The position numbers were made by a program, and so were the translations under genes. From IMG/VR virus record IMGVR_UViG_3300048504_000538, positions 1 through 34,500 of that record: DNA of 34,500 nucleotides, one strand, 5' to 3'. A model generated the notes under the pieces. That model had not been told where the DNA came from and searched no databases. It worked only from the letters and a program-made list of their open reading frames with translations. Shown here one piece after another: positions 6,708 through 32,844 of the stretch (positions are counted from its first letter, which is position 1; every line of letters starts with the position of its first letter). This DNA is from a virus.

Positions 6708-9700
6708 TTAACTATCATATTTTATTAAAAAGTTTATTGGGTAATTTGGTAAAATCTTCACAGGTTTACCCAATTTTGCCACCATTATTAAATCGAGACC
6801 ACTATATAGTCCAATTGTAGTAGCATACGGTGCTAAATAACTTCCTTGTGTATCTCGTTGATCATTCTCTTTATAGTCTATAAAATCCTTTAATATTTTT
6901 CTTCCTATATTTTTACCGGTTTTTTCATTTAAATAATTCTCAATATCAGAAGGTTTAAATCTAGTAGCAGAACCAAATCCGTCAACTAGTCCGTTCGTAA
7001 GAGAAGAACCCGTTCTTCCCATAAAGTATCTAACCAAAAGTCTTGCGTCATTTGCAGAAACAATTCCGTCACCATCTATGTCGAACTCTCCATTGGTATA
7101 TAACATATCGAGTTTATCTAATATATATTCTTGATTGTAGTTATTGGATGGATTTAACCGCTCTGATATTGTATCCATCAATAACAAGTCTTCAGTTTCC
7201 GTCATTAACAATTTAGATAATTCTGTTTTATTTTCATTTATCGTAAGACCATAGTTTAGTTCTTCTTCTACTCGTTCATCACGGACTTCGTACAAATCAA
7301 AATCCATGATGTATCTATAAATTAAAGAAAGATCATTTATATCAAACTTACCGTCTTCGTTGATATCGTACACAATTCCTCCAGATAACAACGAAGTTGG
7401 GTTCGTGCTAAAATTAAATTCATTCGGTTCAACTCTACACAATATCTCATTTTCATATAATGTTTGAGTCGATTTAAATTCAATATCAAATCCACGGGTT
7501 CCACTATTTTTTAATATATCCGAAAAATGATTTTGTTGGTCAGATATTGACAGCAAACCATTCTTGTAAAATGCGTTACCTAAATAATATTTTTTTGTTG
7601 ATTGCAAGGCATGGTGATCATACGACACAACACTTCCTGATATGCTGTTTGACAACTCTCTCAAATATTTTGGATTTATGTCTTTATGTTCCAAAAATAA
7701 CCTACCACTTGCACCGAATGGAACAACTGATGTTCCTGCGAAAGTAATAAGTTCATCAATTTGAAAGTTACCTAAAACAGGTGAACCCACAAATATGAAA
7801 TCAGAACTCAATGATACGGAGTTACCAAACTGCTTTCTTGCTTCATATTTACCTTTATTTGAACTTATCCGTTTAATTAAACTACACTCATTGTTTGCAA
7901 TCTCATAATAGTAAGCAATTCCATTTATAGCAGTTTTACGTGAACTATATATTAACATTAAAGTATCAGTCATTTGCACATTTGGTAAAATGTTTACATA
8001 AACATACAGATATTCACCTATTATTTTTGTATAGTCTCTATAAATACCCCAAGTGAGTGATCCGTTTTTACTCACTGTATCATTATTTGATATTAGTTCA
8101 ATATTTTCACCCTTTAAAAACCCAACTCCGTTGTTAAATTGACTTGGTAAATTTTTGGGTGAATCTTCATCTGATATTGAAAAAGTAATATCTATGTTAG
8201 ATTCTAGATGTTTTAATAAATCAGATAAAATAAACCCCTTTCCTATATTGTTTTTCCACTCTTCACGTAGATTCTCATCTTCTATGTTTTTAATTTTAAA
8301 AATAAGATTTAAATTTAATAACGATAAATGATCGTTTGGTGATGGGTGTACATCTTCCAAAATATTTTTTATTAGATTTTTATACCCATAATAATCATAC
8401 CAAGACGATAAAGTCTCTATTTCACTTTTGTCTATGTACAGTTCTAATATGATTTTTAATATTCTAAAATTAATAAAAATTTTATCTACTTTTTCAAGTT
8501 CCATTAACAAGGGTATTAGACTTGTAACTAACTCCGGATTTTCTGTGTATTTTAAATACAAATTACTATCAACCAAACGAGACGAATGACGTACATATAA
8601 ATTAAAAAATTTATTTAACTTTTCTTCGGACGACTCAAACTGATGTTTATCTTCAATCTCTAAAATTAAATCCAAAAGACGAGTTTTACTTTGGTATGTA
8701 TCACGTTCTATCTGAAAACTTTTCCATTTTTTAAGAACATCTGTATTTTTTAAAAGATAACAATTAGATAACTTATTTAGTTCTGACTCGGTGATAATCT
8801 CAAACTGATCAATGTTATTGCTAAGTTCGTATTCTTCAAGCAAACTTTTTAAACTACCTGATTTATATAAATCTGTGGTTGTTCCTATTTTATCAGAAAT
8901 TACCCAACGTCCCCTGAGTTCATCATAAAAAATTGACCAACCATCTTTGTTTCTATATATTTCAAAGTTTGTTTTGTCGGTTATTTCACACCCATGATTT
9001 ATTCCTATTGGGTTTTGTATTTTCTCAAACAAACCACCCAACTTCTCTGCATTTCGTTTTTTTATTTTTTTAACTCTCAATGTTGATTCTCCGGTATCAA
9101 TAAAATCTGCCTTTACATTTATTTCAGGAAGTTTTGTTTTATCAATACTTAGGTCATCAACTTTAATTCTCAGAACCACATCACCTATTTTTGAGTCATA
9201 GTCATATTCATAGTTTTGAAAAATATATTCCATTGTAGAAAACTCAGTATCATCGTATTTGTCAGAACCATAAATGAAATTATCTATTGTTATTTTTTTA
9301 TCATCCCCATAATCTACTAATTTTATTTCAGAGCATTCTGTGTTATGTCCGGATACAATAAAATTATTATTTAAAATTGAAACGTCAGTACCATATCTAA
9401 AATTGAAATTCTCTTCAATATCCTCATTTCCGTATAATTTTGATTTGAATGATATTGTTTTGTTCGAGAGATTAAATACATAAACTGCTCCACTTTGATA
9501 TTTGCTTTTTTGATTACTTATTGGATAAAATTTTCTGTCGGATGGGTTTCCAATTATTAAATGATCCTTGGTTGCATCTATTGAATATCCAAATTCCGAC
9601 TTTACATCATAAGAATATCTGTATGATTTGTCTACTGTCAAATGACGAGGTAGTATGTCAAAGTAACTTGGATTATTATAAAACTCTATACTACTCTCTA

Positions 9701-12700
9701 ATCCAACAGGAATGTTTTGTTCATTGACAAGTGCTACATAAACTTTGTGAAAACCTTCCTTTAAATCGTTTCGTGGTATTTTTATTTTACAAGTTTTAGT
9801 TTCAGGTGAATATATAGATAATGGTATATTTAAATTATCAGATATTTTTGTCTCCAGTTCAGACAACTTATATTTTGTTCCCTCAAAACTTCCGTCATAA
9901 ATGAATTCATAGTAATTTTCAGTGTCAGACTTGTAATTAAAAGTAAGTCTCGTAACCTGACCATTTAAATTTGTAGTTCCGTGAATTTCGCACAATTTAT
10001 ATTCATCTTCATATTCATGTGTTGCATTGTTAGCATAAATTGACATAATGCTTAAACCATCGGTATATTCTACACTTGGGTATGTAAACACAGTATTTTC
10101 TCTGATCCCTTCACATCTTACTTGTAAAACGTCTCCTAAATTTTGAGTCATCGGTGGATGTGTATATAACTTTGCACCTTCCTTGTTATTCAAAAAGTCG
10201 TCAACCAACGAATCACCTATATCTACAAATTCACCCGTGTTTTCTTTTGTTGTATAATGAGATTTTTTATATTCTGGTTTGGTTGTAACCACAGATGTTA
10301 TTTCATTTATTTTTTTTGGTTTAACCAATTTATCATTTTTCTTTACTGCATTTAATTCACCAAGTGTAAAGTGAGTTCCCTCAATGCTCCCATTAAAATT
10401 AAATTCATAATAAAATCTTTTTTTAGTATCACACTCAGTCTGATTAAATACCAACCTACAAGATTTTCCGTTTAAAGAATCAGACGCACCTATTTCAGCA
10501 AGTGTAAATGATGGGTTGTAACCCCCATCTTCCTGCTTCCCCTCCTCTGAATAAATTGTCATGAATGATGGATTTGTTCCAGACTTAACTCTTGGGTATT
10601 GAAATGAAACATTTTCTCTAACATTTTTCCACGATAGTGCTATTTCATCATCCGTTGCATTTGGGTGAGTGTATGAAAATGCCGATTGTCTCTTGGAAAA
10701 AAACATAGGAAAACTACATCCAATATATATCTGTTGATTCGTATCAAATTTTACTTTTCTATTTACGCCTATGTTTGCAGGTAATTCACCATAATTTTCA
10801 GAAATATTTTCTTTTAACTCACCAAGTGTATAGTGAGTACCTTCTATGCTTCCATTGTATATAAACTCGTATTCCATTTCATCCCCACCAAATTGACCCA
10901 CGTTTAATGTTAAGCAAACTTTTTCACCGTCAAGTGTGTTACTTGCTCCAATTTCAGCAATTATATATTTTGGGTCATATAGTCCATCGGCATTCTTTGA
11001 GTTATCAGAATAAATTGTCATAAAAGAAGGTTTCGATCCTGATTTTACATCTGGATATGAAAACGAAACATTTTCACGGAAATTTTTCCAAGATATGGCA
11101 ATCGTGTCATTTGATTTAAACGGTTCCATGTATGATAAACTAGTTTCCCCTTTACTAAAAAACTTTGCATAAGGCTCCCCCAATAACTCAGCAGCCGAGA
11201 TGGATGTTCCATAATTTGGTGGAAGTATACACGCATACTTAAAACTTTTTTTGAGTTCACTTAATGTGAAGTGAGTTCCTTCCACCGAACCTCTGTATTC
11301 AAATTCATAATAATGTTCATTTCCATTTACGTTACCCGTATTTAGTGTAAGTCTTACAAGATTACCGTTTAGTGTATCAGTTGCACAAATCTCTGCAATA
11401 GTATATATGGGATCATACTTGCCATCTGCTTGTTTTGCATCGTCAAAATAGATTGTCATAAAACTTGGATTCATTCCATGTTTTACATCTGGATATGAAA
11501 ACGAAACATTTTCACGGAAATTTTTCCAAGATATGGCAATCGTGTCATTTGATTTAAACGGTTCTAAATAAGCAAGACTAGTAAGTCCTTTACTGTAAAA
11601 CTTTGAATTTGCTTTATTTTTCAATGGATCATTAAAAAGAATATCACTTAAATCTACATATTCACCAATATTCGCAGGTAAACCACATTCAAATTTAAGA
11701 TCATCTGTCAATTCATCAACTATATAGTGCGTTCCCTCTACTGACCCCTTAAAAACAAAATCAATAAACTCCTCGGAATTACCTTTACCCGAATTAAATA
11801 TCATTCTTACAATTTTACCATTTAATGTCTCGTGTGCCCCAATTTCAGCTAACATATATCTAGGATCGTATTTACCATTTTTTATTTTTGCATTATTTGA
11901 ATAAATTGACATAAACGATGGATGAATTCCACTCTCTACATTTGGAAATATGAATGAAATGTTTTCTCTTACATTCTTCCAAGATATTGATATTGGTTCT
12001 TTGTTTGGTTCTCCTGAGTTTTTACTATAAGAAATTTCGTTTTTAGACTTACTAAAAAATTTCATGGTATCATCACCATCTTTAAATAAATCTGATATTA
12101 CTTTTGATATACCATAATTATGAGGTAGTTGACCCACTTCTTTACCACCTATAAAATTATACCGTGAGTAGTACGAGTATACACCACCCCCTCTGCACAT
12201 AGAATCACACTTGGAGACACGTGTACCTCCTATAATTCTGTTACTAGACTCATCTTTGTTTGTCTTTATTAATCGTGAGTCTAATTTGTATAACCACTCT
12301 GTATATTCATCGGTCGACGGACAAATCTCAAGTTCTATAAATGTGTCATAATAATTTATAGATAAAAAGTTCATGTTTTCTGATAAATCAGAAGGACTTA
12401 TTGAGTGACCAGATATTTCACTATCCGACAGACTGTGTGTTAATTTCCACTCTTCACACCCATATTCGTTTTCTACTTTATTGTATACATAGCATCGTGG
12501 GAGATCTGATGATGGATTACTTACATAGATAGTATCGTCTATAATTTTCACAACCTCACCAAAGTTTTTAACACGACTGGTCGGTGGTGTTATCATACCA
12601 ATTAAATCAAACGTATAATCTCCTAATCCAGAGTCAGGTGTCTCTGAGTATTCGTTAATTGGAAATTTTGATTTATCTCCAAAAGAACTTATATCATCAT

Positions 12701-14570
12701 CACCACCAAACAAACCAACACCATCTAAATCACACGATTGTTTACTGTTTGTCATGAGTATAATCGGTTCGTTGTTTCCAGATACATTCTGAACTTTCCA
12801 CCTGTATGCCCACTTGTTTTGTTTGTTTTGAACATGGTTTGGGTTTGGTACATATGAACCATCGGATTCATCGGTTATATATCCAGGCCATATTGACTTG
12901 TTGTAAAAATTTTCTTTATCTGCTGATTTACATCGGACACTTGGATGTGTATTTGGTGACCAATATCTTTTTTTAAACCACAATTCCGAGTCAATATTAT
13001 CACACTCTACTCCGTCCGAATATAAATAATTAAAAGGATATTTTTGACTAAAGTCGTCATTTACAGGTAAGTATTCGTAATACTCTTTTTCATTTATTTC
13101 ACCGGTTTTAAGTTTTCTATTTAAAAAGTCTCTATGTTTTTTAATTTTATCAGATACAATTTGACTTCTTAGTTTTAAATAATTTAAATACTCATCATTA
13201 TCTTGCTCTGGGATACCTTTGTATCTTTTTATTAAATCGTTCCATTCATAGGATTCATAAATTGTAGAAGTTTTAATCCACGGATGTGACTTGGTTCTTT
13301 TTGTTTTTTTATAAATATAAACACCACCAACTCCATTGTTAAGAGTCGGTGATCCGACTATCAGATAATTTTTAAATAAAGAAATTGAATTACCAAAACT
13401 TGATCCAGGATCACCTTCTAAAACATTTATCAAACCCCAGTTATCAATTCCACCCTTTCCTTTATCGTATATAAACACATGGCCAGTTGCGAACTCATTA
13501 TCAACACCCGCAATACTAGATTGGGGTGACCCTATTGCACAGATTCCCCACCCCAAATCTAACGCCTTACCAAAGTTGTCATTGGGTGTGGTAGTTCCAT
13601 TTGATATTATATTTCCTATTTCAGTCAGTATAAAACCAGTATTATCATTTTGTTGTTCCTGAGCAAGTCCACTTTGAGTAAATGGACAATAAAAGTTTTT
13701 TAATATTTCAAATTTAGAATTTTCAGAAATGTACTTATACAATGTTGCTCTACCCGACTGCATATCAGACGGTGACGTTGGTAAAACAGGTGATCCCGAG
13801 ATAAAATATTTATCGTGTGAGGCAAGAGACGACCCAAAAGTTATATCAGAATAATCAAAATACATTTTATTTTCATCTGAAGTATTCTCATCAATTACTA
13901 TGTTTACTGAATTTAAATTTATTTCAGATATTTCATTAAAAGAACTCTGACCTACTATTAAATTAGTGTTTCCGTCATCCTCGATTACAATAGATTCGTA
14001 TTTAGAACTATTGTCTGTTATTTTAATTGAATTTGGTTTAATCTTTTCACCAAAAACTTTTGCAGGTATTTCCAATACGGTAATCTCATCTCCAACTACT
14101 CTTCTTTCTTCGTTTGTGTTTTTGGTTGTTTTTGTTATTTTTGAAGTGAAATCATCTGATGTGTATATACCTGTCTCCGAACCAAACATATACATGGGGT
14201 TTTTGTAATATTTATTATATGATACATCAGATGAAAGTCCGTATTCATTGTAAAATAAATGCTTTACAGAATTGTAAACTGATCGCTGATATGATCCATC
14301 GGTATTTAATGGTTCTTTTTCAGGATCAAAGTATTTGCTATCTTTTTCAAAAAATGTACCTTTTATGTTTTTTCCTTTTTTTATCTTAACGTTAAAATAA
14401 GAATCATTTTGTTCAGTAGACAACTTAGAGTCAATTCCTGTGAAAATAGGTATATTATTACCTTGTTCAAGAATTATTGAGGTTTCAGAACTAGTTGTAC
14501 TATAATTCCACTCCTTGTGAGTTTTGAACTTAGATACAGTTTTGTCCGACAATTTTAGTGTTTTTATCAC
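6708..14570 (-). CDS. Giant mosaic tail protein (2620 aa) with FG-GAP-like, tandem-repeat and dockerin-like modules
   Basis: The start is GTG at 14570; no ATG occurs before about residue 126 and no Shine-Dalgarno is visible. Residues 1-230 resemble the N-terminal module of T4-like marine phage structural proteins (SVYNSVKHLFYNEYG, then VLEIPAKVFGEKIKPNSIKI and EDDGNTNLI). FG-GAP-like blades follow (near 244-290, 331-376, 391-425, 669-707), then five tandem copies of a ~150-aa unit (816-1584), more blades (1657-1746, 2245-2272), and a scaffold C-terminus. That C-terminus is EFNFSTNPTSL (near 2382) and ATTIGLY (near 2581), with a dockerin-like pair of loops between them: DINEDGKFDIND (near 2402) and DIDGDGIVSAND (near 2495). 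An NGTY-type segment lies near 1843-1895. The likely role is a tail fibre or baseplate-attached adhesin. The C-terminus resembles that of the 466-aa neighbour upstream. I infer that the extra modules were inserted into a shorter ancestral scaffold. Confidence 0.85.
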   Translation of the reverse strand: MIKTLKLSDKTVSKFKTHKEWNYSTTSSETSIILEQGNNIPIFTGIDSKLSTEQNDSYFNVKIKKGKNIKGTFFEKDSKYFDPEKEPLNTDGSYQRSVYNSVKHLFYNEYGLSSDVSYNKYYKNPMYMFGSETGIYTSDDFTSKITKTTKNTNEERRVVGDEITVLEIPAKVFGEKIKPNSIKITDNSSKYESIVIEDDGNTNLIVGQSSFNEISEINLNSVNIVIDENTSDENKMYFDYSDITFGSSLASHDKYFISGSPVLPTSPSDMQSGRATLYKYISENSKFEILKNFYCPFTQSGLAQEQQNDNTGFILTEIGNIISNGTTTPNDNFGKALDLGWGICAIGSPQSSIAGVDNEFATGHVFIYDKGKGGIDNWGLINVLEGDPGSSFGNSISLFKNYLIVGSPTLNNGVGGVYIYKKTKRTKSHPWIKTSTIYESYEWNDLIKRYKGIPEQDNDEYLNYLKLRSQIVSDKIKKHRDFLNRKLKTGEINEKEYYEYLPVNDDFSQKYPFNYLYSDGVECDNIDSELWFKKRYWSPNTHPSVRCKSADKENFYNKSIWPGYITDESDGSYVPNPNHVQNKQNKWAYRWKVQNVSGNNEPIILMTNSKQSCDLDGVGLFGGDDDISSFGDKSKFPINEYSETPDSGLGDYTFDLIGMITPPTSRVKNFGEVVKIIDDTIYVSNPSSDLPRCYVYNKVENEYGCEEWKLTHSLSDSEISGHSISPSDLSENMNFLSINYYDTFIELEICPSTDEYTEWLYKLDSRLIKTNKDESSNRIIGGTRVSKCDSMCRGGGVYSYYSRYNFIGGKEVGQLPHNYGISKVISDLFKDGDDTMKFFSKSKNEISYSKNSGEPNKEPISISWKNVRENISFIFPNVESGIHPSFMSIYSNNAKIKNGKYDPRYMLAEIGAHETLNGKIVRMIFNSGKGNSEEFIDFVFKGSVEGTHYIVDELTDDLKFECGLPANIGEYVDLSDILFNDPLKNKANSKFYSKGLTSLAYLEPFKSNDTIAISWKNFRENVSFSYPDVKHGMNPSFMTIYFDDAKQADGKYDPIYTIAEICATDTLNGNLVRLTLNTGNVNGNEHYYEFEYRGSVEGTHFTLSELKKSFKYACILPPNYGTSISAAELLGEPYAKFFSKGETSLSYMEPFKSNDTIAISWKNFRENVSFSYPDVKSGSKPSFMTIYSDNSKNADGLYDPKYIIAEIGASNTLDGEKVCLTLNVGQFGGDEMEYEFIYNGSIEGTHYTLGELKENISENYGELPANIGVNRKVKFDTNQQIYIGCSFPMFFSKRQSAFSYTHPNATDDEIALSWKNVRENVSFQYPRVKSGTNPSFMTIYSEEGKQEDGGYNPSFTLAEIGASDSLNGKSCRLVFNQTECDTKKRFYYEFNFNGSIEGTHFTLGELNAVKKNDKLVKPKKINEITSVVTTKPEYKKSHYTTKENTGEFVDIGDSLVDDFLNNKEGAKLYTHPPMTQNLGDVLQVRCEGIRENTVFTYPSVEYTDGLSIMSIYANNATHEYEDEYKLCEIHGTTNLNGQVTRLTFNYKSDTENYYEFIYDGSFEGTKYKLSELETKISDNLNIPLSIYSPETKTCKIKIPRNDLKEGFHKVYVALVNEQNIPVGLESSIEFYNNPSYFDILPRHLTVDKSYRYSYDVKSEFGYSIDATKDHLIIGNPSDRKFYPISNQKSKYQSGAVYVFNLSNKTISFKSKLYGNEDIEENFNFRYGTDVSILNNNFIVSGHNTECSEIKLVDYGDDKKITIDNFIYGSDKYDDTEFSTMEYIFQNYEYDYDSKIGDVVLRIKVDDLSIDKTKLPEINVKADFIDTGESTLRVKKIKKRNAEKLGGLFEKIQNPIGINHGCEITDKTNFEIYRNKDGWSIFYDELRGRWVISDKIGTTTDLYKSGSLKSLLEEYELSNNIDQFEIITESELNKLSNCYLLKNTDVLKKWKSFQIERDTYQSKTRLLDLILEIEDKHQFESSEEKLNKFFNLYVRHSSRLVDSNLYLKYTENPELVTSLIPLLMELEKVDKIFINFRILKIILELYIDKSEIETLSSWYDYYGYKNLIKNILEDVHPSPNDHLSLLNLNLIFKIKNIEDENLREEWKNNIGKGFILSDLLKHLESNIDITFSISDEDSPKNLPSQFNNGVGFLKGENIELISNNDTVSKNGSLTWGIYRDYTKIIGEYLYVYVNILPNVQMTDTLMLIYSSRKTAINGIAYYYEIANNECSLIKRISSNKGKYEARKQFGNSVSLSSDFIFVGSPVLGNFQIDELITFAGTSVVPFGASGRLFLEHKDINPKYLRELSNSISGSVVSYDHHALQSTKKYYLGNAFYKNGLLSISDQQNHFSDILKNSGTRGFDIEFKSTQTLYENEILCRVEPNEFNFSTNPTSLLSGGIVYDINEDGKFDINDLSLIYRYIMDFDLYEVRDERVEEELNYGLTINENKTELSKLLMTETEDLLLMDTISERLNPSNNYNQEYILDKLDMLYTNGEFDIDGDGIVSANDARLLVRYFMGRTGSSLTNGLVDGFGSATRFKPSDIENYLNEKTGKNIGRKILKDFIDYKENDQRDTQGSYLAPYATTIGLYSGLDLIMVAKLGKPVKILPNYPINFLIKYDS
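7050..7370 (-). other. Dockerin-like pair of calcium-binding loops within the 2620-aa protein
   Basis: Two segments about 90 residues apart match the dockerin/EF-hand loop D-x-[DN]-x-D-G-x5-D. Both are followed by a helix (LSLIYRYIMD; ARLLVRYFMG) as in type I dockerin repeats. The spacing is longer than in classical dockerins, where the two repeats are nearly adjacent; an acidic helical insert separates them here. Confidence 0.65.
11043..11126 (-). repeat. 84-bp perfect direct repeat, copy in unit 3
   Basis: This stretch is identical base for base to 11481-11564. It encodes the TIAISWKNFRENVSFSYPDVK segment and adjoining residues of unit 3. The identity stops abruptly on both sides while the encoded proteins diverge. 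Confidence 0.9.
11481..11564 (-). repeat. 84-bp perfect direct repeat, copy in unit 2
   Basis: This is the partner of 11043-11126, 438 bases away. All 84 positions matched when compared by eye. Confidence 0.9.
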
Positions 14571-14602: not shown

Positions 14603-16003
14603 CTAAAAATCTAACTTAACTTTTATCAGGGTTTCTGTATCAAAGCTTTTCAAGATAGGCACACTGGTTTTAGCAACGGCAACCAATTCATTGTTATCGT
14701 TATACAAACCTACAGTTGTAATATATGTTTTGGGGTCTTCTATAAAGTCTTCGTGACTTACTCTACCAACCCAATATTCCCTACTAGGTCCTTGTCCCGA
14801 TTCATATAACTCAGTTGCAACACTCCCGTTAAATACAAACGATGGATTGTTACTATAATTAAAATCTGTATTTTTTACTCGTATAAAATAATGTTTTGAA
14901 GGAACAAATTCAGTGCTCCTTGCTTTAAAGTTTCCCCCAAGTTTTATTGCTTTAAAAATTTTTAGAAAATTTTGATGGTTTCTTTCAATTCCATATCTCA
15001 TGGTATCTGAGTTTGATGAATCGGTTGGATTTACATCTCCATACCAAGATAATCGTCTTCCTTCATTATCTTGTAAAAGTGCCTCGTCTGCATTTCCCAT
15101 CTCGACCATAACTTCTTCAATCAAGTTTCCAAAGTGACAAGAAAGAGCAAATGGATTTAATATTATTATACCTAAATCAGGATATGCAAACCCAAATCCT
15201 TCACCAGAACCCTCACCTCTGCCTACTGCAAACTTATCCTGTGGTGTGTGTTCGTCAACAAGTGAACCTCTGATTATTTGAAATACTTTTCCATTTGAAG
15301 TATTATTAATAGAATTTACATTAAGTGTTCTACTGTCGTCTCTAAATGTCTCAGACACAACTATATCACCATGACGAATTGATAATTTAAACTCTAAATT
15401 CCCAGCGTCAAATTTTTCTCTTAAATTAGAAGAAGAAAAATTAATTACATAAATTGAATCTCTATCTTTATATCCGGATGATGCAGAGTCCAAAGTAAAT
15501 GTCCAAGATGAGTCACCGGGACCTAAGAGTATATTTTTGTATTGATTGTATATTGCTTTTGTTATTGAGTTTGATCTAGCATCGTTCAGTGATCCATATC
15601 CAAATTTATTTCCATATGAAACCGTAAACTGAGATTCTGCTTGATCGTTCGGTATTCCATTTATGTATGTTTCTGCATTGTAAACATTTGCGTAATAATC
15701 TCCAAATGATGAATTGGTCCAATTTTCTTCAGAAGTATTTCTTTTAAATGTCTGCTCTTCGTCTATTATATCTACGTCAGAAAAATTAGTCAAACTTCCC
15801 ATATCGTTATATTCAGCATCAATTTCCTGCAATTCATCAGTTTCCTCATTTCTTACCACCCAACCACTTAGACCACTTCTAACTTCACTTGGATCGATGT
15901 AGAAATTATTATTCTCAAATCCGTCAGAGAATAATCCAGAAGAGACTTTCCTGACTCTTCCAAATACTTTATCTGTATCTTCAATTTTCCTATAAATGCT
16001 CAT
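14603..16003 (-). CDS. Conserved T4-like virion/tail structural protein (466 aa)
   Basis: I recognise the layout from structural proteins of T4-like marine phages, usually annotated only as virion structural protein. The features are TKAIYNQYKNILL (near 147-159); a strand-rich middle with DSIYVINFSSSNLREKF; FGFAYPDLGIIILNP; then HYFIRVKNTDFNYSNNPSF and the C-terminal ITTVGLYNDNNELVAVAK...LIKVKLDF. No enzyme motif is present. Its start ATG overlaps the end of the upstream gene by four bases (ATGA), so the two are coupled. Its C-terminus resembles that of the 2620-aa protein encoded next, which suggests that the two sit in equivalent attachment sites or arose by duplication. The exact position in the virion is not shown by the sequence. 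Confidence 0.8.
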   Translation of the reverse strand: MSIYRKIEDTDKVFGRVRKVSSGLFSDGFENNNFYIDPSEVRSGLSGWVVRNEETDELQEIDAEYNDMGSLTNFSDVDIIDEEQTFKRNTSEENWTNSSFGDYYANVYNAETYINGIPNDQAESQFTVSYGNKFGYGSLNDARSNSITKAIYNQYKNILLGPGDSSWTFTLDSASSGYKDRDSIYVINFSSSNLREKFDAGNLEFKLSIRHGDIVVSETFRDDSRTLNVNSINNTSNGKVFQIIRGSLVDEHTPQDKFAVGRGEGSGEGFGFAYPDLGIIILNPFALSCHFGNLIEEVMVEMGNADEALLQDNEGRRLSWYGDVNPTDSSNSDTMRYGIERNHQNFLKIFKAIKLGGNFKARSTEFVPSKHYFIRVKNTDFNYSNNPSFVFNGSVATELYESGQGPSREYWVGRVSHEDFIEDPKTYITTVGLYNDNNELVAVAKTSVPILKSFDTETLIKVKLDF

Positions 16004-16734: not shown

Positions 16735-17604
16735 TTAAAGTGATTCAGATACTATCTTTCCAGTAAAAGTTCTAAATGATCCATTGGCAACCTTCATTCT
16801 TCCATCATTAATACCACCATCGATGGGATATTTTGAAGAGTCTTCATAATATTCATGGTCATTTTCTAAATGAGTTTTATAGTTTTTATATGCCTCAACA
16901 TATTCGTCTGACTGAATGTAATAAAAATTAGTATCTTCGTTTATTATATTAGGAGACACTACATCTCCTGTTATGCGACTCCTGTAAAACAAATATGCTA
17001 CATTATGAGTAACTCTTGATTTGAGTTTTACATTACCATAATCCAACACCTTAGAATATAAATTAAAGTCATCTAAATAACCACAAAATCCCCCAAGTTT
17101 TATATTTTTAAATTCTACAATTTCATTTTGAATTTTAGTATCAACTTTGTTTTCAAATATCCCATTTATAAAAATTTCAAATACCCCATTCTTATTAAAA
17201 TTTACAACAAGGTGTGTCCATTTATCTTTTTTAAGTTCAACTCCAAGATCTATTACTGAAGAATTTTGTTGTTCATTCCACTTTGCACCAATCTTATTTT
17301 CTTCACCATTTGCGTTTAAAAATAGACCCGTAAATCCGTTTAGTGTTTCATTTGTAACTATTGGTGCGTTTTCTTCACTCGTTTTTGCAGGTGCAATCCA
17401 CATTGAAACTGATAATTGGTTATTTTCAAACGAATTGCAATCACATTGTAAAAATGACTTTTTAGAATCTTTGTATGTTATGTCGTTGTCAAAGAAGATA
17501 GCACATTTATAGTTACTATCTAATGATGACCTTATAACTTTTCCGTTATGTAATATTGCACCACATCCGTCTTCAGTAATAATTTTTTTTAAATAATTTT
17601 TCAT
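16735..17604 (-). CDS. LamG/concanavalin-like jellyroll tail protein (289 aa)
   Basis: Residues about 32-190 have the pattern of a LamG-type jellyroll: LSVSMWIAPAKT (64-75), then GLFLNANGEENKIGAKW, DKWTHLVVNFNKNGVFEIFINGIFE split over 127-151, and IKLGGFCGYLDDFNLYSKVL (168-187). The W-x-H-L-V and F-x-I-x-x-N-G elements are the usual landmarks. Such domains often bind glycans or proteins; the partner here is unknown. The C-terminal 90 residues are unrecognised, but end in FRTFTGKIVSESL. The start ATG overlaps the stop of the giant 3679-aa gene (ATGA), so it is translated with it and may act as its partner. It is the last gene before the palindrome-containing gap. Confidence 0.75.
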   Translation of the reverse strand: MKNYLKKIITEDGCGAILHNGKVIRSSLDSNYKCAIFFDNDITYKDSKKSFLQCDCNSFENNQLSVSMWIAPAKTSEENAPIVTNETLNGFTGLFLNANGEENKIGAKWNEQQNSSVIDLGVELKKDKWTHLVVNFNKNGVFEIFINGIFENKVDTKIQNEIVEFKNIKLGGFCGYLDDFNLYSKVLDYGNVKLKSRVTHNVAYLFYRSRITGDVVSPNIINEDTNFYYIQSDEYVEAYKNYKTHLENDHEYYEDSSKYPIDGGINDGRMKVANGSFRTFTGKIVSESL

Positions 17605-20600
17605 TTTATGGGTGAGTCATACTGTTTATTTTTTGTAAATCCAACGGTCGAACGAGACCAAATTCGTTTATCTAAATATTCATCAGAATTTAAATTATCC
17701 GTAACATCGTTATGCGATACTACTTTATACCAATATGTTTTTCCAGATTCAAGAGTTGAGTCATCGTCTGTGTATTCCACTTCTTTTAAACCTGTTACAA
17801 TTACATCATAAGTTGAATAACTCGTAAAGTCATTTATATCTGATCTTAGTATAGAATATGATTCTGTTTTATTAAACATATTTTCTGATGTGGGTTTATT
17901 CCACATTATATGAATTTTATCGGTAAATGTTCCATTAGTTGCTTCTAAATTTTCAACAACTTTTGGTAAATCCAATCTCCATCCGAGGATTTCTTCGGAA
18001 GTGGCAGTTTTTTCATGCAAACCAACTGAAGTAATTCTGTATTTAATGAGTTTGCCGGCCTGGGATTTGGTATCAAGAAACCCATATACCGAATAAACTT
18101 GTGAAACATTATCTTCTAATATTTGCCAATTTCCGTTTTCAATGGATGTCTCTATTCTGACATATTCTGCATCCGGTGATGATTTCCATGAAATTAATAT
18201 TCCGTTTGGTAGTCCAGTTGATATTGTTATATCCGTAACACGGGACACGAAAGTTTTAAGTTTTACTAAGACACATCGTTTACTTGGCCAAGATTTTAAA
18301 TAAAAATCATTTGAAATAAAAATGTTTTTTCCATTATATAAATGAACTCGACCACCTCTATTTTTTGTTAAGTAGAATGGTCTAAATCTGCCATTTATAA
18401 TTACATCAGAGGAATCCCAACCGAATGAATTTAAGTCATCTAATTTATATGTTTCAGTTTCTAACATTGAATAGTTTTGAACACTTACATTAAAACTTTT
18501 AATTTCATCAGGTATACTCGGAATGATAAACTTACTATTATTTAAATCTTCAATCGTTGCTATTTCTAATACATCGTATCCAAATACCTCCATGTCAGAA
18601 ATTATTTGCTTTTCTGTTTCAACTGGATCATTAGACAAGTCATACTTTTCTTTTGTTATTGCAAACTCATCTAATAAAAATACAACCCCCGAATCATTGT
18701 TTACACCCACATTTGTTTTGGTTGGGGTTGGTGTTGGTTGTGGAACTGGTGTTGGTGTACTTTCACCTATTGGGGTTGGTGTCGGTGTTTTATAAATTGG
18801 AAGTGGTGTGGCCGGAGATTCGTCTGATGTTGGGGTTGGGGTTGGGGTTGGGGTATCTTGTAATTTCGTTATTGTAGTGGTTGGAGTCGGTGTTGGGGTT
18901 GGAGTTGGTTCTTCTTCTTCATATTGAACGTGTATATATGCGGTTTCACTAAGAAATCCAGACGAAGAACCATTATTACCATTTAATTTGCTACCCAACA
19001 TACTTGTATCTGAAGTGGTCCATTCCTCACCATCTTCATCCAAGACTTCATCTGGTATATTTTTAGAATTGGATAGTTTCCAAAAATTTCCATTGTTATA
19101 TAATGTCCAGTCACCATTGTTCTTAAATACATTATAGTTGTTAAAAGTACGATTGGTTGGTTCGTATGTTCCGTTTGCAGTTGTCACAGAATCACTCACA
19201 AATCCTTCCACATTCAATATAATTTTCTTTATATTTATTGTATTTTCAAAACTTAAACCTATAATCGGATTACCATCGGGTGCTTTTAGTGGAATGTTGC
19301 TCAATTCAGAGTCGTATGTCTGCTCATCTTGATTAAACCAAAATGAATCTTTGAACTCTACATCGGAGTTATCTCTTTCACTTAAACTTCTCACTATTGG
19401 TGGTTTTTTATCAAGGTTTCCTGAACTGCTGATAGTTGTTTGGTTTGAATTTATGGTGATTCTTTTTGTCTTCCGTGGAATTGTTTTGTAAGTGTGTGTA
19501 TTTAATGTTCCGTGGATCAATACATTGTTTTTAGTTCCAACTTTTGGCAAATCATATGGTTGATACTTTTTTTGATATGAATATATTCTTTTGTTACTTA
19601 TATAATATGATTCATATACCCCATTTTCAATTTCACTAGGTGATGAGAATGTTTTACTGAAATCATAATCTATATTAGTTTCAAATATATTTTCACTTGT
19701 AACCACTTCGTATTCTTTTGAATCGTGAACTTCTATTTCACAATCAACATTTACTCTAACATGATTGTGATTTAGTACCTCCCAATATGTTTCTCTATCA
19801 AAATCTCTATCCGGAAATACAATTCTGGTAGTCGGTGTATCCTTTTTACACCTATACATTTTTTTATTATAGCATATAGTTTCATCTACTTTGTAGTTTG
19901 TACCAAGTTTCCATTCATTTGAATATATATTTTTTATGGTATGGGTTTTGTTCTCAAGATTGACCAAGGACTCTGTATATCGTTTGATACCAGATGATGT
20001 GTATTTTGTTTTCGTTGCGTTAGTCTCCATTACCACACGATCCAACCCATCTTTATTTTCTATCTTTAAGTTTTGTCCTATTTGTAAATCATCATAATAA
20101 TTTAAATCGGCAATTGTCTTGTTGAATGTTACTGGAATTGTATTATAGTGATCCACCTGCTTAATCATCGATGAAGTTTTAAAATTTATGTCAATATCAG
20201 TATATTCACTTGGAACTTTTGCAAATCCAGTTTGAGAGAACAGACTAAACTTACCGGATGCTCCTGTTAACCTAAGACGACTTATATCCACACCAATGAA
20301 ATCTCTAGTGTTGTTGAAGTTAAAATGTAATTTAAAGTTTACATATAATATGTCTGTATAAGAACTATTTGAATATACACCAGTCTGCTCTATTGATTCA
20401 GTTAGACTTATTGTTTTGGTTGGATACTTAATCGAGTCTGTAATTTGCCATTCACCGTAAACTTCTGCATTGTTCTTATTTTTTGAAAACAACCATCCTT
20501 TATCGTTTTTAAATAAACAATCACCAGACTCATGGTATCCAACTTGTCTATAAATTCCGTTTACGTTTTCATAATCGTCATAAAATCCAGATACGGTTAT

Positions 20601-23600
20601 TTGCAATTCTTTTTCACGAAATGTTGAATACTCTACACTTCCATATATATTTTTGGTGTTTGTCTTGTATGTACCAACAAGTGGGTATAAATCACTTTTT
20701 ATTAATGTTACATCAGTTTCCCTATTTTGTATTATATATTTTTTATGTGAATTTGAGTATAATAATTTACAATTGTTTTTGTTTATTATTTTTCCATAAA
20801 TTAACTTATATTCCCCCCCTAGTTCTTTAAGTTTATTGTGTTGTTTAAGTGGGTTGGCAACTAACAATGTTTCACCGTATGTTCTTATTTTAACATCCTC
20901 GGATATTAAGTTATTTTCACTCCGTGATGTTAGTATCCACTTCATTACAGAAGTATCCTGTATATTGCAATAATCTGTATCTGTTGTTTGTATTATTTTT
21001 AATTTTTTAAGTTCAGTTTCAACATATTGATACTTTAGTAACAAAGCGTCATCGTATTTATCAGTATTTACATAAACTATTGGTATTTCGTAAATTTTAC
21101 TTGAGTCTTTTTTTGATTTTATTCTTATCTTCCACGCTAAAAAAGTATTTATCCTTGAACTTACTTCTTTGATGTATTTTGCATTTGGTCTAATTATGAA
21201 TTTATTATGTACATCAACCTTTGCAGACTGAAATCGTTTTCCTACATTTTCACCTTGTTCATTGTACACTAAACCCCCACTATCAACCGTATAATTAGAC
21301 TTTATGAATACTTCGTTTCCTTCGTAAAATCCATTGTTATTATTAGCATTTGCTACGAACCCGTTTTTTATATTTCTTGTTTCGGACGATATAAATATTT
21401 TTTTATCATTAATATTTTTTAGTACCCAAATACTTTTTGAACTTTCATATAAAAGAATCCATTTTTTATTATCGTTTATATAAGTTGGTATTGATATTTT
21501 TTCCTCACCACAATACGAAACATCGTATTGAAGTGTGTATTTTCCGTTTGCAGATACTACCGTTCCGTAAAAACCTTCTATTTTAATACAACCAGATGAT
21601 ATTCTGTTTTCATAGTTACCTACTAGTTTTGCGACTTCAACTTCATCGTTTATCTTATTTTTAAGTAGTTCATATTTTTCTTTATTAAAAATTCCAAAAA
21701 ATTTATTTACTGCTACACCGTTTTCTTTGTATGTTATCTTTTCATTTTCAAAGTTCAAAATTTGTATATCATATGTATCAGAATTGAGTGGTATAGAATC
21801 TCCACACAAGTCGGTTCGATCCGTATCTAAATTTGTAATTACAGGTAAAACATCAAACTCATCTATTGAGTCGTTATTAATATAAATTATATCAGTAGTT
21901 TTTTCTATATGAGTGGTTTTATCCATTCTAGATTTAACGAGTAATTTTTGCTTATATATTTGATTTACGTTATAAATTATATTACTTTTTGTTTTAAAGA
22001 ATGTATTATCATCTATAGTAGTCAACGGCATTCCAATAGTATCACCGAGTTTTAAATTTCCAAGTGACTTGATTTTTACACTTTGCTCAAGTTTTGGATT
22101 GGGTAGTCCAGAAATGACCGATACCCTAGCTCTCTTTCTTTTGGTATATTTATTGTTATGCACATCGGGACTATCCAATACAATTGTTGGATTTTCATTA
22201 AATGTTATAGTTTTATCGTGTTTCCAGTTTATACCCGTAAATAAATAATGTGAATAGTCTGGCTTTAGTATACTTCCATTCCTCTCATCCAATATAAATA
22301 AGTCAGAAATTTTTATTTTATGTGGCCAAGTATCTTTCCAGTTTTTAGGCTTGAGTCCAGTTAGATACGCAAATTCAGAACCAGTATATCCAACTCCCTT
22401 AAAATCTACAAGCATTTTTAATATATAATGTGACACACCATTTACATTCATAGGTGTATCTTCAAAATAACAATTTACAGACGACTTGTATTGTTGAGTA
22501 TTATATAAATAGTCGTGTGTATTTAGTTGAGATTTCATCTCGGTATATAAACTTAATTTTAATAATAAAACAAATTGATGTTTTCCTCGTTTGTCTAATA
22601 TGTCAATTATACATTGATCAATGTTATTTTCAGTATTTGTGATATATTTCTTATACGAAGATTGATTTCTTTCAATATTTGGGTTATCACTTAGACGATT
22701 TATATATGCTGATAAATTAGTTTCAATTAAATCACCACTTTCGTTATATACCAACCCACTTTTAAAGTCCCCTCCACGATTTAGTACATCAACCGACATT
22801 TCGGTTTGTTTATTTATTTTAACAAGCAAATCATTTATTTTGTATAAACCAGATGAACCAATTCCGTTTATATTTGAATATAAGACATCAACTTCACATG
22901 GAATGGATGATTTAATTTGAACTTTGTATTTTAAATTCACAGACCATAATTTTGGTGAATAAAAATTATTTATCGTTTTATACACAATAGTATCTTTAAA
23001 TTTACCACTCGCATAATTTTGAATACCACTTGTATTTAAGTTTTTAATATGAAATTGACTGTAAAATTTTAAATCAAGCGTGTCACTCATTTCTAACTTT
23101 GATGGAACTTTTACTAAATTTAATTTTTTAAATTGCTTCTTGTCAAAATTAATGTGATGGCCATAGTTCTTGTAATCAATTACATACTTATCATTGTCAT
23201 TGATTTTGGGTTGATCGTTTATGTCACCAGAAAGTAATAATGGAGACTCACATGATTCATACTGGTCACCATTTACACGACCAACAATTTTTAATGACTT
23301 ATTATTTTCAACTCCTTCATTAAATTTAGAATTCCCAACCCATCCAGATTGAAGTTTACCGTTAAATTCACCATTTAAATATAAATATCGTTTCTCACCA
23401 TTGAATGTATGAGTTCCTTTTTTGTTTGATATATCGGTAGCTTCACCTTCTTTACCTACAATCCTTTCAACATAATAGCCACTATACACACCATAAATAT
23501 TGCAATTAACCCACCCATTTATGTATCCACTTATTTCAATGAATTTATCAAATGAAGAAACCGACTTTACATTAGTAAAGTAATCTTGTCCCGTTCTTGG

Positions 23601-26600
23601 AATATTACCTAATGGTAATGAAAAATTAAATCCAGAACTAAACCAAACAGGATAAGATAAACCTCGTTCATAATTTAATTCATTACCAGATAACCAGATG
23701 TAGTTTTTAAAATCTTTTAATTGTCCAGTTGCTAGTTTTTTTCCACCGTTTATTTCTCCATCAGAAGCAAGTATCCACCTTCCCTTAATCTGTGAGTAGA
23801 ATATCCACCAAATTCTTTCATCGTCCGAAAACACAGGAAATCCACTCTGTCCTTTAAATTTAAGTTGATAAGTACCATTCGCCTGTTTAAGTTCTCCGTC
23901 TAGTTCGGAAATTTCAATTTTATTTTTTAATAAAATATTATAGTTTAAATATTTTCCAGTATATCTTGAGGCCTTCTCTAACTGATGGTAAAATTTTTCA
24001 ACTTTATACAAATTATTTCCCAAAATCACACACCCATTGTTTACAAATGTGTCTCTGTAATCGTCTGTTAATTGCTCACCTATTAAATTCTCACCATAAT
24101 TAAAATGAAACGACTCTTCGTTTTTGTTTTTATTTACCACAACCGAAGTTTCTATATTTGATACATCCGACGTATGTGTTTGTTTAATGTAGTTTCTTTC
24201 ATTCGCAAACGATGATATATTGTTGCGTTTGGGACCTAAATCAAATGAAAACGAAATTTGTTCAGTTATTGTTTCACTATCTATTTGTTTTTTCTGTTCC
24301 TGAACATACGCACTTGTTTTTATCTCAGGTGGTTTTATTTTACTTCTTTCAAGAATACTTGGTTCTATTAATAATCCAGATACTAACTTTACTCTGGCAG
24401 GTATTACCTTCTCCAAGTTTTCAAATATAGATGGATCTATATATGATTTTATTATATTAAAATATCTTTGAGTATCTATATTTCCAAAACCGTTATCAAA
24501 AAATAGTCGTTTAAAGCTATCTAGTTTTTTGTATTTATTTGAATATATGTCATGTGGATCACCAATAAAATTAGATAACCTAAAATTTCCAAAAAATCGT
24601 ATAATTTCTCTATTGACTAAATCAGTTGGACTAAAATAAACCCCAAGTGTATTGGTGTCAATTGATGCTCTGTCTTTTGATTTTTTTGTTGATCTTGATA
24701 AAGGATTTAGTGTCGAAATAAGTGTTTGTTTTTCAATTCGTATTTTTTCATTACTAAAACTTTTCGAACCGTATCCAGGTATGCTTGCAGATTCCCGTCT
24801 AGAAGTTCCAATAAAACTATAAGGGTAGGTATCTGTTGTAAAGTTATATGCCTTTATATCAGACTGTTTGTTTAAAGAAAAATTCTTTATTACACCATAA
24901 CTTACTTCACTACTAAGTTGATTTAAGTTATATGGAAAGTCAAAATTTACTTTTACTAATAGATTTTCTTTTAATTTTGAAGGATCGTCTATATCATATG
25001 ATTCATTGAAATTTATATGATTAGTGAATCGTTTTTCTGAAATGTCGGTTTTATATATTCTGATTCTATCTAATAGTCCTAAAAAAGATTCCGACCTATA
25101 GTTTCCAAAGAATATTTCTTTGGTATTTAAAAATAAATTCAATGAATGTTCTGATAACAGGTTTGTACTTGTACCAGAATATCTTACATTAGAATCAACA
25201 ACTCGTTTTACCAATAAATCAATTCCAAAATCAAACGACAATTCACCTGTATGTCGTTTAATTAAAATATCATATTCATGTGTGTCTCCAAAATATATTG
25301 GTTCATCGTAAGTATCAGGACAATACAGTGTCCCGTCTGTATTGTTGAACGTAAAGTAAAATTTTCCATAGTTTTTAAGAAAGGTGTTTGTGTCACGATA
25401 AATTCCAAATTCCCATTCAGATGTAGTCATTATTGGAAAATGACCATTGTTTTTAATAAAGACTCCACTATCTTTAAGCTCCTGAATTGTGTAGTGAGTA
25501 CCAGTCGTAGTTCCATTGAATTCAAAGTCTATATTAAATTCTTTTTCATACTGATGTGTTTTATCCTTACTAAAAGACAGACGTACAATCTCTCCATTTA
25601 ATGTTTCGGTTGCTCCTATTTCTGCAAGTGTATACAGAGGGTCGTATGTTCCGTCCTCTAATTTACCTTTGTTTGAGTATATTGTCATGAACATGGGTTC
25701 GGTTCCTGCACCTACTTTAGGGTATGAAAACGAAACACCCTCTCTTGTGTTTTTCCATGAGATAGATATATCATTATCATCCCAATCATCAGGCCTAAAT
25801 GACTCAGAATTTGCTGGTTTATTAAAGAATTTTGGATACTCCGAACCAATTATGAAATCATCATCTGTTAATATTCCGACCAGGTCCACAAAGTTACCAG
25901 AATTTGCAGGTAGAGTAGTTGATTGTTTACTTCCAAACCGTTGGCCATCTTCGTAAGAGTCAAATATTTTACTATCTAGTTTAATCCTAAATTCAATAGA
26001 TAGTTCATCTCTTTCTTCTTCAGGTAACTCTATCTGTAAATATTGGTTGGTATTGTTAATTTGTAATGCATAGTTAAAAGTATCAAGTTTATATTTTGTA
26101 TCACTATCAAAGTTATCACTACCATAATTTACTCCACCAAATTCTTTTATTTGAAATAAATAATCCGGAACACCGTAACACTTAAACAATGCTCTAATTG
26201 AAGATTCTGTACCCGATGTCTTTAATATATAAGGTAAATTATTTAGTAATCTCCTCCATATAGTATTTCTGTTTTCTTCAAACTTTTTACTTACCGACAA
26301 TTCATCAACTTCTCTTCCATAAAAATTAATTCCAAATGAATTCATAACAAACCAAACAAGTTGGTTTGGTACTCCTTTTGAAAAGGAATTACGTATATAT
26401 TGCATATTTGACATTGCCTCAATGTAAACAAGAAGCACATCAAATTGCTCACCAATCATATTTAAAAAGTTTATAAAATCTTCGTTTTCATATGTTCTTA
26501 CCAAGAACTCAGGTATACTATTTGCAAGAGAGTCATCATTATTTTTATCATATAAGTTTGCTTTTTTTGCAGTTGATTCATACCACAAATAACCTTCTGT

Positions 26601-29222: not shown

Positions 29223-30485
29223 TTAAATTACTTTAAAAGTTCGTGAATCTATATAAACATCACCATTTAATTTATTTTTTGTTTTTATTAAAAATTTATA
29301 CATTCTGCCTAAGTTACATACATTAAAATCAAAGATAAAAAAGTGACCACCTTTATCGCAACTTATTTCAGTTGACTCAGAATAATCTAATACAACTTCT
29401 TCCGTTTCAGCGTCAATTAAAGAATAAAACATTTTTTCCTCTGTATAGTTTTCCAATGTGTACCTCATTCTATTCTCAAACTTCTTAATTGGATATTTCT
29501 CACGAACACCTACTTCTATTTTTATGACCGAGTTCTTATCGTATTCTTTTTTAACTTGTTTTATTTTAGGGATTATATTTTCGGTATTAAGTTCACTAAG
29601 TTTTGTATTACAAATATCATTTACATTGTTAATTGACCCAGAGTTAATTGATCCGGAGTTTAATGAACCAGAGTTAATTGATCCGGAGTTTAATGACCCG
29701 GAGTTTAATGACCCGGAGTTAATTGATCCGGAGTTTAATGACCCGGAGTTAATTGATCCGGAGTTTAATGATCCGGAGTTAATTTCTGATTTTGCGTTCG
29801 TTTCTATGTCACATGGATTAAATACATAATCTAAAATATGCAGTTCAAGATAAGGTTCGTATATTGTGTTAGTGTTTTTTGCAAAAAATTTAACAGACGA
29901 TTTGTGTATCTCAGTATCGTTTTTTAATTTAAGTATAAGCCCATAGTTTTGTATTTCATCAGTTTGCCATAAACTAAAAATATCTGTTATATCGGCTCTT
30001 AGGTCACTAGCTATGTTTTTAAATTGTACATTCTTATTTATCGGTAAGGTTTCACCGGTATCTGTTTTTATCTCCGAAAACCAAGTACCACCACCAGTAA
30101 AATTTGTTTCATTTTTATACCCACCACCCCAAAGTTCATTTTTCTTTTTATACTTCCAAGATGATCCCGGATAATTAGTCTCTGCGTCAATAAATCTACC
30201 TGATCCAACTGACCAACTTTCTGCTATAGGTAGAATTTCAATTTCGAAATCATCACCAAGTTCAGTTTTTTCGGTAATTTTAAAGTTTAGATATACACTT
30301 GATGGTTTTATGTCGTATAACAATACATCATCTATATTAAACTCTATCAAAATTCTAGAAACATCAGGACCGGTGTCATAGTCAAAACCCCCTCTCAACT
30401 CTGCAATTTCATCTGCACCCGTATTAAGTAATTCATATCTACTATATATTGTATTATTTTTTTCTGATCGTATGAACTTTATCAT
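29223..30485 (-). CDS. DNRLRE-like tail structural protein with 10-unit pentapeptide repeat
   Basis: The 420-aa product starts with NTIYSRYELLNTGADEIAEL, SRILIEFNIDDV (44-55), ILPIAESWSVGSGRF (84-98), GGTWFS (130-135), ADITDIFSLW and EPYLELHIL. This order matches DNRLRE-type jellyroll proteins found in phage tail clusters. Residues about 236-285 are ten 5-residue repeats NSG-S-[LI], encoded by a 15-bp minisatellite. The C-terminal 130 residues form a separate strand-rich domain (IKIEVGVREKYPIKKF; FFIFDFNVCNLGRMYKF). The gene's ATG overlaps the gp6-like stop. A GGGAGGG about 7-9 bases before the ATG is a good ribosome-binding site. The likely place is the baseplate periphery or tail fibre base. 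Confidence 0.75.
   Translation of the reverse strand: MIKFIRSEKNNTIYSRYELLNTGADEIAELRGGFDYDTGPDVSRILIEFNIDDVLLYDIKPSSVYLNFKITEKTELGDDFEIEILPIAESWSVGSGRFIDAETNYPGSSWKYKKKNELWGGGYKNETNFTGGGTWFSEIKTDTGETLPINKNVQFKNIASDLRADITDIFSLWQTDEIQNYGLILKLKNDTEIHKSSVKFFAKNTNTIYEPYLELHILDYVFNPCDIETNAKSEINSGSLNSGSINSGSLNSGSINSGSLNSGSLNSGSINSGSLNSGSINSGSINNVNDICNTKLSELNTENIIPKIKQVKKEYDKNSVIKIEVGVREKYPIKKFENRMRYTLENYTEEKMFYSLIDAETEEVVLDYSESTEISCDKGGHFFIFDFNVCNLGRMYKFLIKTKNKLNGDVYIDSRTFKVI
29631..29780 (-). repeat. 15-bp minisatellite, 10 perfect-length units
   Basis: Ten units of 15 bases run from 29631 to 29780 without gaps. On the plus strand they are variants of AATTGATCCGGAGTT and TAATGACCCGGAGTT, with one or two substitutions. 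They encode the pentapeptide NSGSL or NSGSI. The two variants alternate irregularly, a pattern expected from unequal recombination or slippage. There are no spacers, so it is not a CRISPR array. Confidence 0.95.
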
Positions 30486-32455: not shown

Positions 32456-32844
32456 TATTGTACAACCTCAAGTGTTAATAATTCCCGTGTATCTGGAATT
32501 GAATTTATTGAAAAACTAACATCAAGAATTGCTCTATTTGGGTAATCTAAATCGTCTCTGCTTACTTCTACATTTAAGATTGCAATCTCAGGCATCCACT
32601 TTTCTGTTGCTTCTATTACCGCATCTTCAAATAAATTATCATATTGTTCGTCACCCGGATTAAATAATAAAAACCTAAGATCACTTCCATATGTAGGCAT
32701 TAGAGGTCGTTCACCTTTAGCTGTCATTAAGAGCATTTTTAAATTAGTATGAACTCTTACTATGTCTGAGTGTGTTTGTTTAAAATATCCGTCATTTCCT
32801 CTGACATAAGGCATCTCTATACCCACTGGAATTTTATCTTGCAT
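32455..32844 (-). CDS. 25: Baseplate wedge protein, T4 gp25-like
   Basis: At 129 aa it matches gp25 (about 130 aa). The pattern VRVHTNLKMLLMTAKGERPLMPTYGSDLRFLLFNP (29-63) is the hallmark gp25/GPW segment, with the conserved GER.m.p..Gsdl..llFe core. It is followed by an amphipathic helix, EDAVIEATEKWMPEIAILNVEV, and an ending strand. gp25 sits at the sheath-contacting end of the baseplate wedge and helps start sheath assembly. Older database names call it lysozyme-like, but this is a structural role. AAGGA lies about 8 bases before the ATG. It is coupled to gp6 downstream. Confidence 0.93.
   Translation of the reverse strand: MQDKIPVGIEMPYVRGNDGYFKQTHSDIVRVHTNLKMLLMTAKGERPLMPTYGSDLRFLLFNPGDEQYDNLFEDAVIEATEKWMPEIAILNVEVSRDDLDYPNRAILDVSFSINSIPDTRELLTLEVVQ

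Follow-up and report, generated by a model that had tools for sequence, protein, structure and literature searches.

The window, that is, the whole 34,500-nt stretch of DNA analysed (positions 1 to 34,500 of the IMG/VR virus record IMGVR_UViG_3300048504_000538), contains two giant genes on the minus strand that carry copies of the same unit of about 150 aa, five in tandem in a 2620-aa protein and one in a 3679-aa protein. The following features were located.

6708-14570, minus: 2620-aa giant protein of FG-GAP type, carrier of the tandem array (open frame; FG-GAP_2, 1e-11; Dockerin_1, 1e-6)
6711-6881, minus: C-terminal frame part 2 (aa 2564-2620, TTIGLYSGL...VAKLGKPVK; sequence match)
7014-7367, minus: dockerin-like pair of calcium-loop motifs between the frame parts (aa 2402-2519; Pfam Dockerin_1)
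7365-7715, minus: C-terminal frame part 1 (aa 2286-2402; E 4.5e-12 to a Mel-JY01 protein)
9825-10253, minus: array unit 5, last and degenerate (alignment, conservation)
10356-10784, minus: array unit 4 (self-comparison and alignment)
10806-11243, minus: array unit 3, sister of unit 2 (alignment, tree)
11244-11678, minus: array unit 2 (alignment, model; modelled span 11238-11693, pLDDT 93)
11703-12128, minus: array unit 1 (self-comparison and alignment)
13956-14081, minus: N-terminal motif of the frame protein (aa 164-205; blastp to the Mel-JY01 and LR756508 frame proteins)
17601-28640, minus: 3679-aa giant protein of the baseplate region, carrier of the single insert (open frame; Mel-JY01 homologue)
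25470-25928, minus: sixth copy of the unit, inserted singly into the 3679-aa protein (matches the array at E 1e-33; missing from homologues)
30485-32844, minus: baseplate wedge (gp6/J-like) and gp25-like genes, upstream of the giants (profile matches)

In the isolate collection, the best matches of the baseplate genes were to Microcystis phage Mel-JY01 (42%), LR756508 (41%), which is a 484-kb uncultured phage, and Flavobacterium immuto phages (39%). RuvC-like, primase, SbcD-like and SbcC-like genes lie downstream of the giant-protein genes, so the window covers the baseplate module of a contractile-tail phage together with a replication/repair block beside it. The record itself is a 34.5-kb fragment. 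The first-pass annotation, made from the sequence alone, had assigned the array to a giant tail protein, and the gp25-like and gp6/baseplate-J-like genes upstream support this tail context. Beside the baseplate wedge gene, the 29223-30485 gene (minus strand) showed a run of SGSLN/SGSIN pentapeptides (Pfam Pentapeptide_2, E 3e-14).

The 2620-aa protein is encoded by an open frame with a GTG start, and its five tandem units of about 145-150 aa each span 9825-12128 at a nearly constant distance between neighbours. Pairwise identities among the five were 34-64%; units 1-4 were 43-64% identical to each other, while the fifth shared 34-40% with them and carries RCEGIRENTVFTYP where the others have SWKNxRENVSFSYP. 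The tandem repeat previously noticed at 9819-12125 is thus real, with the motifs then quoted present and the fifth unit degenerate. Six copies had also been mentioned; five are in tandem, and the sixth lies outside that interval, at 25470-25928 (minus). The LPxNxG motif, formerly taken as a linker, is not one, because in the predicted structure it is part of the domain itself (residues 5-10 of the model, pLDDT about 96) and because single-copy units have it as well. The FG-GAP profile (PF14312) matched the 2620-aa protein with 44.9 bits, above the curated cut-off of 23, and also matched the relative L003. FG-GAP-like motifs precede the array, and in several clade members follow it as well, so the array appears to be positioned within or beside a propeller. 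In another relative (L002:4243-4626), the first array unit has a TPTPVP-type linker in place of its N-terminal portion, suggesting that this phage may be able to do without roughly the first 45 residues of the unit.

The 2620-aa protein consists of frame parts plus cargo, the frame protein by itself being 306-357 aa long. The frame parts matched a 306-aa protein of LR756508, a 357-aa protein of the immuto phages and a 591-aa protein of Mel-JY01 (L041:36170-37945), the match of the N-terminal motif being weak (blastp E about 3e-4 in a small set). The Mel-JY01 protein holds a Laminin_G_3 domain as its cargo. The two C-terminal parts adjoin directly in LR756508, with no dockerin-like stretch between them, indicating that this stretch is a further addition. 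Empty sites in Mel-JY01 and LR756508 showed that the unit is an optional addition missing in homologues, and the array is cargo added to the frame protein. Dockerin-type motifs DINEDGKFDINDLSLIYRYIMD and DIDGDGIVSANDARLLVRYFMG stand near the C-terminus of the 2620-aa protein; the pair was seen across the clade, with one motif in contig L010. The frame-protein family, with the C-terminal motif TTxGLYxxxxLxAVAKLxxP, has several paralogues per phage, such as 14603-16003 (minus) besides 6708-14570 in the window and several in Mel-JY01. As the frame ends enclose different cargo (none, LamG, or FG-GAP plus unit array), the family looks like a swappable appendage carrier.

The sixth unit matched the array protein with E 1.4e-33 and 132 bits, while 500 shuffled versions of it reached at most 32 bits, so the likeness is not due to chance. 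This single unit splits a domain of the 3679-aa protein that stays continuous in Mel-JY01: the homologue there flanks the insert, with query positions 685-919 and 1092-1436 aligned to nearly adjacent subject positions, and when aa 899-1062 were removed, the alignment ran through the junction (KIFDSYED vs. KFYSYQGD). The receiving domain looks LamG-like by eye, which Pfam does not confirm: no Laminin_G match was found in window positions 24936-26105, in the same stretch with the unit excised, or in its counterparts in Mel-JY01 and LR756508. By eye, the 3679-aa protein also contains several copies of a different repeat of about 80 aa (GFxGxxxxxNGxYxL...W.L.YE....W.L), to which a stretch near aa 1850-1920 of the 2620-aa protein is similar, and its C-terminus carries a PTPTPT-rich linker followed by two fibronectin-like stretches that gave no Pfam match.

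Further, a profile of the unit was used to determine its distribution. The profile recovered the window units and units in 22 viral contigs; scans of IMG/VR gave 34 loci and later scans a few more, all fitting a pattern of three genes, and no relatives were found in isolate phages, plasmids or GTDB species genomes. Within the collections searched, the unit is therefore restricted to uncultured viral contigs from a single clade, which uses it in the FG-GAP giant, in the baseplate-region giant and in a protein of about 745 aa. The FG-GAP giant has eight copies in seven other contigs with a complete array, six in L010 and five in the window, and homologues of the 3679-aa protein in the clade have one copy each. 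The third protein (720-757 aa, e.g., L032:4204-6438) carries a single C-terminal unit in 12 of the 12 loci found. Its gene stands between a fibre-like and a glycosyltransferase-like gene, outside the fragment represented by the window, and it had no database relative beyond its own clade. From the fibre-like neighbour we infer that it belongs to the virion; profile searches gave no support for a sheath or capsid protein. The earlier description of a string of units is thus apt for the tandem array, but not for the lone insert and the lone C-terminal addition in the two other proteins.

When 67 units were compared with Pfam (at E up to 1), PHROGs and NCBIfam, and the unit with PDB sequences, no convincing match was obtained, just scattered weak matches of single members, in line with the first reading that the repeat belongs to no named family. 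BACON (PF13004) was not among the Pfam families listed, and no profile match to Ig-like families (I-set, Big_2, FN3 and kin) was found in the three profile libraries. The best phrog_3966 match (E 0.014) was treated as noise, because among six records it reached 16-18 bits in two, solely at the C-terminal unit of the ~745-aa protein, and no sequenced relative matched. No published description of the domain was found in a search that covered few of the subscription journals, and the unit is apparently undescribed in the literature and databases searched.

The structure of the unit was then predicted. The AlphaFold2 model of a single unit (152 residues, built from the 67-unit alignment) had a pLDDT of 93.1 and a pTM of 0.88, and was compact and nearly all-beta, with about ten strands and a short C-terminal helix, as had been surmised from the buried-looking conserved residues. 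The two-unit model, built from 39 tandem pairs, had a pLDDT of 91.3 and a pTM of 0.84; the latter value indicates a defined orientation between neighbouring units and suggests that they stack in a fixed way. The Foldseek comparison of the single-unit model, which had been recommended beforehand, returned nothing significant (best E 0.18 in PDB and 0.069 in viral predicted structures), and query-normalised TM-scores in the top rows did not exceed 0.25; the two-unit model likewise had no match. VIA-align, which re-scores Foldseek's candidates only, scored neither model at Z 2 or above against the 998 top-ranked chains, many of them Ig-type. A new fold, judged against PDB and viral predicted structures, is a possibility and not a result.

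In a tree of 100 units, based on 144 columns only and with many forks open, the inserts formed one group (SH-aLRT 93) and the C-terminal units another (98). Within the array, unit 1, unit 4 and the last unit clustered mostly by position across phages, while the middle units clustered by lineage: units 2 and 3 of the window were sisters, as were positions 3 and 5 in the L004-L007 group. The last unit of the window was a long branch of unsure placement. The separate groups of inserts, C-terminal units and array units indicate that the use of the unit in three proteins predates the sampled clade, and the sister relations within lineages indicate that copy number changes through duplication in the middle of the array. 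Recent mobility of the domain was unsupported, given that the three kinds of unit form separate old groups, and so was concerted evolution of the whole array, as only the middle units follow lineage. The units evolve under purifying selection, with the last unit evolving fastest (dN 0.09-0.16 vs. 0.02-0.09 in the other units of close phages).

Residues conserved in the array units were also conserved in the single insert and the C-terminal unit, including W56, K57, N58, R60, E61, F65, Y67 and P68, and further Y82, E101, L108, R114, F131, G135, G139, E146 and L147. Because the same residues are conserved in single-copy settings, the constraint is imposed by the fold or by a shared ligand and not by neighbours in the array. 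The last unit retains R60, F65, Y67, P68, Y82, E101, F131, G135 and G139, and is relaxed at K35, S55, K57, G73, F78, K87, P95 and A104. The pattern is read as a fold core plus a putative site used by all units but the last; the conserved residues may also all be structural.

Our preferred reading, to which we give about an even chance, is that the unit is an undescribed, displayed all-beta accessory domain, arrayed as a stiff tail-anchored arm that binds a repetitive host-surface ligand. An independently folding, almost all-beta unit would be placed on the particle by one clade of contractile-tail phages, and the array would form a stiff, multivalent arm on the tail-anchored frame protein. If the units bind a repetitive ligand on the host surface, most likely a glycan, copy number would tune the reach and avidity of this arm. 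The diverged last unit, which keeps the fold core and has lost several common residues, could act as a structural cap. A displayed arm is suggested because baseplate genes adjoin, three proteins of the clade have the domain, the models are confident, and the units show a fixed two-unit arrangement at near-constant spacing; outward display is also expected from additions at loops or cargo positions, where relatives have empty sites. Binding by the arm is suggested because the equivalent cargo of Mel-JY01 is the lectin-type Laminin_G_3, and because array, insert and C-terminal units conserve the same polar and aromatic residues, several of them being relaxed in the fastest-evolving last unit. 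Display and arraying rest on sequence, context and prediction, and the units probably bind a ligand, the array probably serving to reach or hold the host surface. A more far-reaching version, in which a new beta fold arose or was captured in one clade as a modular multivalent host-binding domain and was duplicated into three virion proteins, is proposed only tentatively.

That the units are inert stalk modules, which set the distance from the tail anchor to the protein's other domains so that copy number matters and no unit binds, is possible but unlikely. Fixed stacking, near-constant spacing and the copy change from 5 to 8 suit a stalk, and BACON domains act as linkers, not binders, in a Bacteroides structure (PMC6949934); however, spacing would be pointless in the two single-copy settings where the same residues are conserved, and the nearly contiguous conserved run W56-P68 exceeds what alternating core packing needs. 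Residue conservation and domain position favour binding over spacing. It is improbable that units of the three proteins bind each other or a common particle protein and so aid appendage assembly: homologues of two of the proteins do without the unit, and array copy number varies while single units stay single, although the clade does use the domain in three proteins, and each of the three lineages is old and stable. Least probable is a very diverged known beta-sandwich (Ig-like, BACON or CBM) missed by profiles and fold searches, since despite the same usage, the beta-rich fold and the many Ig-type chains among Foldseek's weak top ranks, the VIA-align scores, the TM-scores and the lack of any profile match above noise all stand against it.

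Tandem accessory domains on phage tails are known, and the described ones mostly belong to a few common folds. The repeat unit is real, apparently undescribed and structurally unmatched, while its manner of use has known parallels. A new accessory stalk/adhesion domain displayed on the tail is its likeliest identity, and it would be used like tandem Ig-like or BACON domains. Like phage Ig-like domains, it is an optional domain on several particle proteins and missing from homologues. Ig-like domains are usually 80-100 aa long, whereas the unit has about 150 aa, matches no Ig-like family by profile or by fold and is confined to one clade in the collections searched. The unit is thus confidently predicted yet unmatched in the libraries searched, it marks an uncultured phage clade, and its three host proteins with natural empty sites offer a clean test of the domain's contribution to adsorption.

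The tail-associated protein of crAssphage has eight tandem BACON domains (PF13004), which expanded by single-domain duplications and of which some positions are stable across phages (PMC6949934). The unit resembles these domains in being beta-rich, tandemly repeated within a tail-associated phage protein and expanded by duplication, but it has no Pfam BACON match, its model has no Ig-like sandwich match among the re-scored Foldseek candidates, no bacterial relatives were found, and single copies occur here in tail-region proteins too. The Laminin_G_3 domain of Mel-JY01 lies as cargo between the same frame ends as the unit array, but is a single copy of a known lectin-type fold and unrelated to the unit in sequence. 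A survey of jumbo phages places lectin-type domains, Laminin G3 among them, on tail fibres (PMC7824862), in keeping with the LamG cargo in the Mel-JY01 homologue.
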